This document shows positions 3,190 through 25,827 of a stretch of DNA of 25,868 nucleotides, in pieces; the stretch's first letter is position 1; the number at the start of each line of letters is the position of its first letter. The notes below the pieces were generated by a model. The model saw only the letters and a program-made list of their open reading frames with translations. It was not told where the DNA came from and ran no database searches. A program made the position numbers and the translations under genes. This stretch comes from a virus. The stretch covers positions 1 through 25,868 of the IMG/VR virus record IMGVR_UViG_3300025816_000066; one strand, written 5' to 3'.

Positions 3190-4761
3190 ATGAAGTTGCC
3201 AAAAGAGCTAGGGTCTTTACAAGACTTAAAAACAAGAGAGTCGCAAGCGTTTTCTAAAATGGCGCAATGGCATGACTTGCTTGATGACTGCTATGAGTAT
3301 TTTCTACCTAACAGAAATCTATTTGATACTGTTGTTTCTGGCTCTAAAAAGATGGATCGTATCTTTGACTCCACTGCAATCGAAGCTATCCAACAGGGAG
3401 CAAGTAAGCTACAAGAAAACATTGCTCCTATCTGGGGTAACTGGGCAACCTTTGCTCCTTCTCTCAGTGTTATAAAGGCATTAGAATCAGGCGAGTTTGA
3501 TGTATCTGAAGAACAAGTTAGACAAAACCTAGAAGATCAGGCTGATATTGTCTTTGATTACATTAACCGTTCTAACTTTGCTACACAGTTCTTTGAACAC
3601 GCTCTTGATCTTTTAGTAGGTACAGGTACTTTACGGATTGATGAGACTGACAACAATGATATGCCATTAGTGTTTAATGCTATTCCACAAAAAGGCATTG
3701 CGTTTGAGGAAGGCCCATACGGTTCTATTGAAACACACTGGCGTAGATTCAATGTTAAAGCAAGAAATCTAAAAAGACAGTGGAGAGGGTTTAAGCCTTC
3801 TCAAAGTGTTATTGCCCTAATAGAAACTCAACCAGATGCAGAAGTAGAAATTAGTGAAGGCGTTGTATTTATGCCTAAAGCTAAAAAATATTACGGTTGT
3901 GTATGGGTTAAAGGCGAAGATCGTATTAGTTGGATGGAAGACTTTGGGGAATCTAGCCCTTGGGTAACTGGTCGTTACTCTAAAGTAGCAGGAGAGATAC
4001 GTGGTCGTGGCCCTGCTGTACAGGCTTTACCTGATGTGCGCTCTCTAAACAAAGTGAAAGAGTTTGTCCTGCAAAAAGCTGCTATCGACCTATCAGGTAT
4101 GTACACCGCTACTGATGATGGTGTGACTAACCCCTACAATATAGTTATAAGTCCAGGGGTTGTTATTCCAGTTGGTTCTAACAACTCCTCTAATCCGTCT
4201 ATCCAGAGATTAGACACAGGGGCTAACCTTGCATTGGCGCAATTTGAAATGCAGGACTTACAAGTCTCTATTAAACGCGCTTTGTTTAACGATCTGCGTG
4301 ATCCTACTGGTGCCGTGCGTTCTGCGACAGAGGTAGCTATTGAGTCAAGAGAATTAGCTAAGAGAATCGGTAGTGCGTTTGGTCGATTACAGACAGAAGT
4401 GCTTGTTCCTATCCTCAAGCGTGTTGTTTACATCCTAACTCGTAGAGGTATCTTACAGCCATTACAGTTAGATGGTCGTGATATCGAGATTAAGTTCCTA
4501 TCGCCCTTAGCTAGAGCGCAAGACGCTGAAGATATTATCAATGTTCAACAAGCTGTACAGTTCGTTTTACAGAATGCTGGCCCAGATCAGGCTAAGATTG
4601 GCTTTAAGCAGGAAGACTTTGGAACGTGGGTAGCGTCTAAGACAGGAATGCCTGCTGAGTTAGTAAGAACACCTACTGAGAAAGCACAGGTTATTCAGGC
4701 TGGCGCACAAGCGGCTCAAGCTGGCATGAAGACATCACAACCACCGATGCCTGTTCAATGA
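3190..4761 (+). CDS. Portal protein (head-tail connector)
   Basis: A 523-residue portal, the dodecameric ring at one capsid vertex through which DNA enters and leaves and to which the tail adaptor binds. The N-terminal ESQAFSKMAQWHDLLDDCYE and YFLPNR stretch, the QGASKLQENIAP and SPWVTGRYSK segments, and the Q/A-rich C-terminus match the podovirus head-tail connector family as I know it. Length is in the usual range (500-560). It lies between the terminase genes and scaffold, the standard place. The start follows the previous stop by one base, and its stop overlaps the next ATG (ATGA at 4758). Confidence 0.92.
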   Translation: MKLPKELGSLQDLKTRESQAFSKMAQWHDLLDDCYEYFLPNRNLFDTVVSGSKKMDRIFDSTAIEAIQQGASKLQENIAPIWGNWATFAPSLSVIKALESGEFDVSEEQVRQNLEDQADIVFDYINRSNFATQFFEHALDLLVGTGTLRIDETDNNDMPLVFNAIPQKGIAFEEGPYGSIETHWRRFNVKARNLKRQWRGFKPSQSVIALIETQPDAEVEISEGVVFMPKAKKYYGCVWVKGEDRISWMEDFGESSPWVTGRYSKVAGEIRGRGPAVQALPDVRSLNKVKEFVLQKAAIDLSGMYTATDDGVTNPYNIVISPGVVIPVGSNNSSNPSIQRLDTGANLALAQFEMQDLQVSIKRALFNDLRDPTGAVRSATEVAIESRELAKRIGSAFGRLQTEVLVPILKRVVYILTRRGILQPLQLDGRDIEIKFLSPLARAQDAEDIINVQQAVQFVLQNAGPDQAKIGFKQEDFGTWVASKTGMPAELVRTPTEKAQVIQAGAQAAQAGMKTSQPPMPVQ

Positions 4762-24385: not shown

Positions 24386-24406
24386 AAAAAAAGCCCCCGA
24401 AGGGGC
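24386..24406 (-). terminator. Intrinsic terminator with UUCG tetraloop (minus strand)
   Basis: Read on the minus strand, GCCCC-TTCG-GGGGC is a perfect 5-bp GC stem with the extra-stable C(UUCG)G loop, followed by seven T residues (24392-24386). It separates the ninB-ninG transcript from the three basic-protein genes. On the plus strand the stem is followed by AAAACAAC, so it acts only leftwards. Confidence 0.85.
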
Positions 24407-24451: not shown

Positions 24452-24477
24452 CCCATCAATCTCCACAATTGATAGGG
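24452..24477. other. Imperfect hairpin in the non-coding gap 24407-24521
   Basis: CCCATCAAT (24452-24460) pairs with ATTGATAGGG (24468-24477) apart from one bulged A, around a 7-base loop. On the minus strand it is followed by a short AT-rich stretch rather than a clean T-run. The 115-base gap holds no open frame. It may be a weak terminator or an mRNA 3'-end structure preceding the stronger UUCG terminator. Confidence 0.4.
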
Positions 24478-24521: not shown

Positions 24522-24761
24522 CTATTCTACACTAAACGTAGGGTGATGCAACCTTAATTCTTCATCTGTAGGTGGTTCAGCAAGAGCCTCTTGTTCAGCC
24601 TCTACCTCAGACCAGATTAAGTCTATCTCTTCTACTGCATAAGCAGGCAGGGCAGAGCCATACAGCACAGCCTCAAAGATAGAATCCATCTGTACTGGAA
24701 CATGATGCATCTTTAAATCAATAGCCTTGCTCCGTAAATCGTTTAAAAATCCATTAGTCAT
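24522..24761 (-). CDS. 79-residue acidic unknown protein
   Basis: It starts MTNGFLNDLRSKAIDLKMHH, has a central hydrophobic helix (SIFEAVLYGSALPAYAVEEI), and ends with an acidic tail (EVEAEQEALAEPPTDEEL). No family is recognised. Its ATG overlaps the stop of the ninG-like gene (ATGA), so it is translationally coupled to recombination genes. The acidic, elongated composition could suit a DNA-mimic or protein-binding role, but nothing in the sequence proves this. It is the last gene before the terminator. Confidence 0.65.
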   Translation of the reverse strand: MTNGFLNDLRSKAIDLKMHHVPVQMDSIFEAVLYGSALPAYAVEEIDLIWSEVEAEQEALAEPPTDEELRLHHPTFSVE

Positions 24762-25162
24762 AACAATCTTTCCTCATGGTATTTAATCAAATCATTAAAC
24801 TCTTTTAACATATCCCTGTAATCAGCAGTGTACAACTTCTTGATCTTTCTCTTGTCTTGGTGCATCTGCCTAACAAAGTCTTCACCATACATATCTATCA
24901 TCCATAGAGTGTACTGTCCTTCAGCACTACCCTTGGACATACCAAAGGCATTACATCCTTTACACTGGGGGTGAACATTCTCAACCTCTAATGCCCAGTA
25001 CGAACTACTCCCCTTAGCTATGTAGTGACCACCATCACATTCCTTCCAGTGCATTCTCTTATCACAAGATACACACTGAACCATTCCATATTCATCTGCG
25101 GCAGAGATTCTTGCCAATTTCTGGATTGCAGTCAAACACTTAGAACGTAATGTAACAGCCAT
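24758..25162 (-). CDS. ninG: NinG/Rap-like zinc-binding recombination nuclease
   Basis: A 134-residue relative of lambda NinG (Rap), a structure-specific endonuclease acting on recombination intermediates. It has a treble-clef-like zinc core: CVSC (Cys30, Cys33), then CDGGHYIAKGSS (with His46), then ENVHPQCKGCNAF (His64, Cys67, Cys70). The GGHYI.kG and NVH.QC..CN signatures are those of the family. The start at 25162 is chosen because GAGG lies 6 bases upstream; the frame also extends to an ATG at 25201 without a good ribosome site. It is shorter than lambda NinG (about 200), mostly at the N-terminus. A 14-base inverted repeat lies just upstream (25182-25195). Confidence 0.85.
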   Translation of the reverse strand: MAVTLRSKCLTAIQKLARISAADEYGMVQCVSCDKRMHWKECDGGHYIAKGSSSYWALEVENVHPQCKGCNAFGMSKGSAEGQYTLWMIDMYGEDFVRQMHQDKRKIKKLYTADYRDMLKEFNDLIKYHEERLL

Positions 25163-25181
25163 AAATAACCTCATTTTACCA

Positions 25182-25195
25182 TACCCTGTAGGGTA
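25182..25195. promoter_or_regulatory. Operator-like inverted repeat upstream of ninG
   Basis: TACCCT-GT-AGGGTA is a perfect 6-bp inverted repeat with a 2-base centre, 20 bases before the ninG-like start. The tiny centre makes an RNA hairpin unlikely and a dimeric-protein binding site more likely. The related string TATACCCTAG occurs at 25271-25280, near the end of the upstream gene. The 114-base gap between these genes holds only an 18-codon GTG frame that I do not call. Confidence 0.4.
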
Positions 25196-25276
25196 GATCA
25201 TATTTTTACCTAAACGCGCTTAGAAAGCTCTACAAGCCCTTTAAACGCCCTTCCAGAACCCTTCACGGAGTATACC

Positions 25277-25399
25277 CTAGCGTTTGTTCTTCTTCTTTCT
25301 TTCTTCCCACAGTTTTTGTTCATCGCTAACCATATCCCACCAACCTTTCATACATATTCCGATTAGTATAAGCCATGCAATTCCTAGTAAAATTTCCAT
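25277..25399 (-). CDS. 40-residue single-pass membrane peptide
   Basis: It starts MEILLGIAWLILIGICMKGW and ends with a strongly basic tail (EERKKKNKR). One hydrophobic segment (residues 2-17) and a charged C-terminus predict a small inner-membrane protein, N-out and C-in. TAGGAG lies 6 bases before the ATG and overlaps the ninB stop; the start is 8 bases after that stop. Good spacing and a clear ribosome site argue for a real gene despite its size. The function is unknown. Its place between two recombination genes is unexpected. Confidence 0.65.
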   Translation of the reverse strand: MEILLGIAWLILIGICMKGWWDMVSDEQKLWEERKKKNKR

Positions 25400-25407
25400 G
25401 TTAACTC

Positions 25408-25827
25408 CTACTCAGTCATATCTTTTGAAGGGAATGGTATGTGTATACCAGTTCTCTCCACCAAACCCCGATTGATAGCGTCATATACTTTAGCTACTTT
25501 GTCAGAGTGTATCTCGGTAGTAGATTCTATGTCGTACATGGTGTTTTGAATCTGCTTCCAAAATAATTTAAATGATTGTTGTGTCCACGGTATCTCAATG
25601 TCACCCTTCATAAACTTAGCGTTCATCTGATGGTAGATACCTGCATCGTTTAGACGTCTAGCCGCCTCTTTGAAATAGACTTCCAGTGCCGCTTGTTGCT
25701 TTGGTGATCGTGGTTTACCAAACGTGTACCGAAAAGTAATATACTGCTTGTCTTCAAACAACTCATCGACAAACTTTTTAAACAATTCTTTCTTCTGTTC
25801 AGTGTTTACTGTGTACGCTTCACCCAT
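25408..25827 (-). CDS. ninB: NinB/Orf-like recombination protein
   Basis: A 139-residue protein resembling lambda NinB (Orf), a recombination mediator that acts on single-stranded DNA and SSB. The pattern runs ITFRYTFGKPRSPKQQAALE (a strand followed by a Q-rich RT.qQN-like helix), then DIEIPWTQQSFKLFWKQIQ, ESTTEIHSDKVAKVYDAINR and GIHIPFPSKD. The iPWT...K..w+.iQ and STTel....v..vYd..nR..v...GihvPFPS sequence is one I associate with phage NinB-like proteins. The start at 25827 has AAGGA 7 bases upstream; an ATG at 25848 would add seven residues without a ribosome site. It is partnered with the ninG-like gene downstream. Confidence 0.75.
   Translation of the reverse strand: MGEAYTVNTEQKKELFKKFVDELFEDKQYITFRYTFGKPRSPKQQAALEVYFKEAARRLNDAGIYHQMNAKFMKGDIEIPWTQQSFKLFWKQIQNTMYDIESTTEIHSDKVAKVYDAINRGLVERTGIHIPFPSKDMTE

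Follow-up and report, generated by a model that had tools for sequence, protein, structure and literature searches.

Comparison of the locus with described nin regions

The ninR region of phage lambda (ninB-ninC-ninD-ninE-ninF-ninG) has a NinB-slot gene upstream of the gene for NinG, with small open reading frames between the two and replication genes upstream. Section 6 of PMC4118853 words the underlying rule as an orf gene that lies upstream of a gene for a resolvase and close to replication genes, and a statement in PMC10695390 has the nin genes as dispensable for plaques. The pairing of ninB and ninG is textbook, and an earlier note on the DNA analyzed here rightly stated that the two proteins are known together from lambdoid phages. 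The locus that we describe is a gene cluster of this known kind. It occupies positions 24522-25827, on the minus strand, of a viral DNA of 25,868 nucleotides (IMG/VR record IMGVR_UViG_3300025816_000066, positions 1 to 25,868; hereafter the window), and its bounds are the stop of an acidic protein gene and the start of a NinB-like gene at M8. In the order of the minus strand, the region comprises the following features:

25408..25827, minus strand: NinB-like gene of 139 aa, counted from M8; the frame is open to 25848 (ORF; relatives match NinB/Orf PHROGs; weak structure)
25405..25410, minus strand: stop TAG of ninB, which overlaps the peptide gene's Shine-Dalgarno AGGAG to give TAGGAG (junction read)
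25277..25399, minus strand: gene for a 40-aa single-pass membrane microprotein (ORF, homologues, pN/pS, hydropathy, neutral simulation)
25173..25219, minus strand: conserved non-coding element of 47 nt ahead of ninG, containing a TACCC-N4-GGGTA dyad as well as a TATGAT box (alignment of 16 sequences)
24758..25162, minus strand: gene for a NinG/Rap-type endonuclease of 134 aa, counted from M14; the frame is open to 25201 (Pfam NinG, phrog_171, hhalign)
24522..24761, minus strand: gene for an acidic 79-aa helical protein, ATGA-coupled to ninG (junction; AlphaFold)
24452..24476, minus strand: terminator-like hairpin after the operon (terminator scan)
24393..24406, minus strand: second terminator-like hairpin (terminator scan)

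The earlier note had proposed that NinB-like and NinG-like genes flank a 40-aa membrane peptide and are followed by a coupled acidic gene, and the coordinates, the strand and the ATGA overlap bear this out. Its wider claim of a lambda nin-type recombination cluster is supported: NinG is secure, the NinB slot is plausible and relatives have O-like, Sak and YqaJ genes adjoining. The "NinB" of the window has no direct profile match.

What separates the locus from its described counterparts is the interval between ninB and ninG. In lambda this interval contains no hydrophobic gene (17-residue maximum at most 0.92), whereas the window has one membrane peptide there and no ninC, ninD, ninE or ninF. 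Cellulophaga phage Nekkels_2 encodes YqaJ, then a homologue of the NinB-like protein of the window (33%, E 3e-9), two small genes and NinG; unlike in the window, the small genes do not encode membrane proteins. Proteus phage vB_PmiP_Brookers (Lederbergvirus) has a 52-aa single-pass membrane ORF, gp64 (hydropathy 2.78), directly upstream of NinG, but its sequence is unrelated and its helix is C-terminal, whereas that of the window peptide is N-terminal; gp64 has tblastn matches in two records only. It is the one clear membrane protein among 21 annotated genes that lie in the NinB-nuclease interval, immediately before the nuclease gene or immediately behind a NinB relative; the seven phages they come from were picked from hits and not at random. 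Within these 21 genes, membrane peptides at this position are uncommon, but there is a precedent of unrelated sequence. In the literature found, including passages from PMC13059738 and PMC7326022, there was no description of a membrane peptide in nin clusters.

On its plus strand the remaining window carries terminase, head-tail adaptor, major head protein, tail, holin and endolysin genes, a set consistent with a T7-like podovirus. The phage is probably of marine origin, with which DNA matches to phages named for Roseobacter, Prochlorococcus, Synechococcus, Pelagibacter, Puniceispirillum and others are consistent. A near-identical relative (L005) extends the picture upstream: YqaJ exonuclease and Sak annealing protein genes on the opposite strand are followed by genes for a Cro-like HTH protein, a replication initiator, a further HTH-bearing protein, the NinB-like protein, the peptide, NinG and the acidic protein (Sak SSAP, E 7.8e-45; YqaJ, E 2.7e-22; HTH_3, E 8.1e-8; replication initiation, E 2e-30). 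This early-operon layout is lambda-like, and the gene order of the window together with the replication genes upstream in L005 conforms to the lambda nin rule. No integrase was found in any of the 16 records searched, which are mostly fragments. GTDB genomes gave a single match, a contig of 30.9 kb in a Piscirickettsiaceae MAG (DAOUSV010000002.1; L114), whose early operon is of the same kind but contains no peptide gene. This contig, possibly a binned virus, does not identify the host; it hints at a gammaproteobacterial host without showing one.

The nuclease and the NinB-like protein

On sequence grounds, the identity of NinG is secure: The protein scores 42.8 bits with Pfam NinG, for which the cut-off is 25.4 (E 6.5e-11), it also matches phrog_171 (E 5.4e-11) and phrog_5034 (NinG/Rap), and hhalign of 20 relatives against lambda NinG yields 94.1% (E 1.3e-7). 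Residues C30, C33, H46, H64, C67 and C70, which we take to bind metal, are invariant in 20 of 20 aligned relatives, as is N71. The 147-aa frame probably starts at M14, giving 134 aa, whereas lambda NinG/Rap (PF05766, phrog_171) has 204 aa; the two have the C-terminal Cys/His domain in common, above the Pfam cut-off, and the window protein is without the N-terminal part of the lambda protein. The alignment begins at lambda residue 98, so that the window protein is equivalent to the C-terminal portion of lambda NinG. Vibrio phage 1.172 likewise has a short protein annotated as NinG (137 aa).

Two variations on the nuclease gene were seen among the relatives. Three loci (L022, L027 and L034, 3456-4007 in each) have a 183-aa gene of unknown family between the conserved non-coding element and ninG, and same-sized gaps upstream of ninG suggest the same insert in eight more of the 80 loci. 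Elsewhere (L185, L188, L199, L200, L203 and L204), a different, HNH-like nuclease of 129 aa replaces NinG after the ninB relative.

The protein encoded upstream is probably NinB-like, that is, a remote Orf, a reading based on its position, its relatives and weak structural similarity. The stop of the preceding gene overlaps its start as TAATG, and a start from 25848 is less likely than M8 because L027 and L041 have the M8-type start only. The window protein itself matched none of the Pfam and PHROG NinB models; hhalign of its alignment against lambda NinB alone was insignificant (0.4% over 24 columns), Foldseek with the predicted model returned a best E of 1.2 and a list without NinB, and the profile found nothing credible among solved structures. 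The slot might accordingly hold another ssDNA-binding or replication accessory protein that is not NinB/Orf, an alternative that we consider unlikely and that several observations oppose: Five of the 20 members of the alignment match phrog_7283 (NinB/Orf; best E 2.5e-7), and the NinB of L051, which in its N-terminal part is most like those of L001, L002 and L004, all closely related to the window type, matches the same family (E 3.1e-7) over residues 13-67 only. In addition, L037 and L064 carry a phrog_72 NinB in the same slot (E 2.1e-17 and 1.3e-17, respectively). Three of the 20 members match Pfam NinB weakly (best E 0.0042). For the AlphaFold model (mean pLDDT 78.1; the other four models 65.6-50.6), the best-scoring VIA row is NinB, 1pc6 (Z 6.0 at an rmsd of 7.8 with 116 aligned; the next row, which is unrelated, has 5.0), a weak similarity in the range that the tool calls common. 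The 24 columns of the insignificant hhalign match cover the stretch of lambda Orf with Q45, K48 and W50, residues that were mutated in lambda Orf according to a section of PMC4118853; Q45 falls on Q51, which is invariant in the window relatives. Within ninB, the N-terminal half has been exchanged from locus to locus (MGEAYT type in L001, L002 and L022 vs MPEGYT type in the window, L005 and L009) while the C-terminal half stays constant, which makes the gene a mosaic.

A conserved gene for a membrane microprotein

Between these two genes, the 40-codon ORF is preceded by AGGAG five bases ahead of its ATG (TAGGAG-TTAAC-ATG); the earlier note had judged this ribosome site good. Only one stretch of the encoded peptide is hydrophobic (17-residue Kyte-Doolittle maximum 2.39), and its tail is basic; 19 aligned sequences give the consensus MExLLGIAWLILxGxxxxGWWxMVxDEQKEWExxKKKNKR, in which M1, G19, E27 and K39 are invariant. 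Changes within clades are mainly synonymous and indels comprise whole codons. Over 24 distinct sequences, whose pairwise comparisons are non-independent, pN/pS is 0.46, 0.40 and 0.27 within three clades, 0.51 when two related clades are pooled and 0.61 for all sequences. Variable sites at codon positions 1, 2 and 3 number 5, 4 and 13 in the A40 clade, a third-position excess, and 10, 5 and 11 in clade B, where the signal is weaker.

An ORF this short could in principle be spurious. Neutral simulation rejects this reading: Starting from the window sequence on a fitted tree with kappa fixed at 3, all 24 sequences were open in 0 of 2000 runs, and on average 3.0 of 24 stayed intact. The in-frame indels and the third-position excess in one clade likewise count against it, and we assign it a negligible probability. 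With intact homologues and pN/pS below 1, the gene called from the letters in the earlier note is genuine, and we are highly confident both of its reality and of its membrane nature.

As far as Pfam, PHROGs and the searched phage records show, the peptide is a new, uncharacterised family. Pfam gave no match, the best PHROG was phrog_5005 (E 0.11, unknown function), the best solved structure was unrelated (E 0.45), and tblastn against 50,697 phage records at E up to 1, a search for which so short a query is hard, gave no match. A conserved and easily overlooked 40-aa gene is documented in uncultured phages. Among PHROGs, peptide relatives also yielded weak spanin matches (one member each for two PHROGs, best E 0.077). 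Together with the short single-pass architecture, these would suit a lysis accessory such as a small antiholin, a pinholin or a lysis regulator, but the matches are at chance level, the peptide sits in a recombination operon, and holin (phrog_3427, E 3e-31) and endolysin (phrog_894, E 4.2e-28) are encoded together on the plus strand, which leaves a lysis role improbable.

Occurrence of the peptide gene and its bearing on function

The earlier note had suggested searching marine phage genomes for ninB-ninG neighborhoods with short hydrophobic ORFs between the two genes. The counts given here draw on two scans of IMG/VR, one with the NinG protein (144 relatives, best 80 used) and one with the NinB alignment (94 loci, best 80 used), whose lists overlap heavily, so that their counts are not independent. 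The peptide is intact in 35 of the best 80 of 144 NinG loci (34 by tblastn and L058 by gap reading; L025 and L060 begin at or inside ninG and are unjudgeable, and L021 has only 391 bases upstream). The best 80 of 94 NinB loci comprise 39 with an intact peptide, 26 with ninG directly after ninB, 14 with another gene and one, L205, cut by a contig end. Broken copies were found in neither list (best 80 of 144 and best 80 of 94, respectively). All 39 peptide genes of the NinB list start with ATG and encode 37, 39 or 40 aa, and the ATG follows the ninB stop with a spacing of 8 nt (23 of 39) or 12 nt (16 of 39).

Where NinB in this list is 76-100% identical to that of the window (L126-L165), 39 of 40 loci have it and L159 is without it outright; disruption of the ORF in close relatives, which the earlier note had named as the observation that would count against its reading, was thus not seen, one locus missing the gene and 39 having it intact. 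At 61-66% identity (L166-L183), all 18 loci are without the peptide and ninB overlaps ninG by a few bases, and at 37-41% (22 loci, L184-L205, of which L205 is cut) none has it. The peptide is also missing from L026, despite identities of 82% for NinB and 90% for NinG.

A third scan, with the peptide alignment, returned 40 loci (32, L082-L113, plus 8 already in the NinG scan), and a NinB gene precedes the peptide in 40 of 40. In L101, which lies on the contig of L037, this upstream NinB is of the phrog_72 type, and L037, L058 and L064 all have peptide homologues behind phrog_72-type NinB, that of L058 being 80% identical to that of L037. The junctions vary: The peptide start overlaps the ninB stop in L058 (TAATG), lies 11 nt past it in L037 and is separated from ninB by another small gene in L064. 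L064 has three small membrane proteins around its ninB-ninG pair (2745-2906, 3566-3727 and 3806-3997).

The peptide gene is consequently an optional cassette at the boundary between ninB and the nuclease gene, since ninB touches ninG without it in relatives and since it is also paired with a different NinB. The earlier note had raised the possibility that the peptide tethers recombination to the membrane or else has an unrelated host-takeover role, the latter being compatible with the observations. In a tether, its charged cytoplasmic tail would recruit NinB, NinG or replicating phage DNA. Position between ninB and ninG, translational coupling to ninB, near-fixation in one NinB lineage and a conserved tail motif (DEQ.EW) would all fit. 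However, the 18 peptide-free loci with overlapping ninB and ninG, L026, and the retention of the peptide with a different NinB in L037, L058 and L064 argue against an obligatory tether, and the suggestion is not supported. This optionality is the main evidence against a required tether, and we regard the tether as unlikely; an accessory partnership would still fit, since the peptide is nearly fixed in one NinB lineage and its start keeps a constant geometry. Less likely by a little is the more specific version, in which the peptide founds a family of inner-membrane microproteins that are made in step with NinB and dock the Orf/Rap machinery or replicating phage DNA at the host membrane.

Our preferred reading, to which we give a probability of about 0.5, is a lambda nin-type recombination operon with an accessory inner-membrane microprotein that acts independently on a host membrane protein or process. 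The cluster would form the distal part of a lambda-like early operon. Going by their families, the NinB-like protein is likely to bind ssDNA and to assist in loading the annealing protein, and NinG would cleave branched recombination intermediates. The peptide is probably translated by reinitiation directly after ninB. By the positive-inside rule, basic tails are placed in the cytoplasm, and the peptide is predicted to insert in the inner membrane N-out/C-in with its E/K/R-rich tail cytoplasmic. It would most likely act on its own on a host membrane target, in host takeover or superinfection exclusion. Independence from recombination is somewhat favored, and confidence in any particular role is low. 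Near-fixation of the peptide (39 of 40 at NinB identities of at least 76%) and the tie of its start to the ninB stop (39 of 39) are equally expected of a NinB partner and count against independent action; database families that give the peptide no function and the NinB-like protein without a direct NinB profile match also weigh against the preferred reading as a whole. The natural plus and minus alleles of the peptide constitute a ready test set. If the peptide docks recombination at the membrane, this would be a new arrangement; if it serves host takeover, it would be one more small inhibitor candidate.

The acidic protein and non-coding elements

The acidic protein (pI 4.39) has an all-helical AlphaFold model (mean pLDDT 82.7), for which fold search returned nothing informative (best Z 5.2, many tied helical rows). 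An acidic-like protein ending NPTFNVD still follows the HNH-like nuclease in L188, L199, L200, L203 and L204, and because it is kept after this replacement of NinG, the acidic protein could be the partner of either type of nuclease, depending on which one the locus encodes.

The 47-nt element upstream of ninG is retained with or without the peptide gene (window; gaps of L018, L026, L041 and L051), while the loop of its dyad varies. A dyad regulon was rejected within the loci examined, as the dyad occurs once in 40 of 80 loci, is absent from the other 40 and is never found twice. A known RNA gene in the gap was likewise rejected (no Rfam match; fold z-scores -0.56 to -1.29). The element is possibly a promoter, an operator or a recombination boundary. 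Terminator-like sites, among them the two hairpins that lie beyond the acidic protein gene, number four in the region, compared with 0.9 expected.
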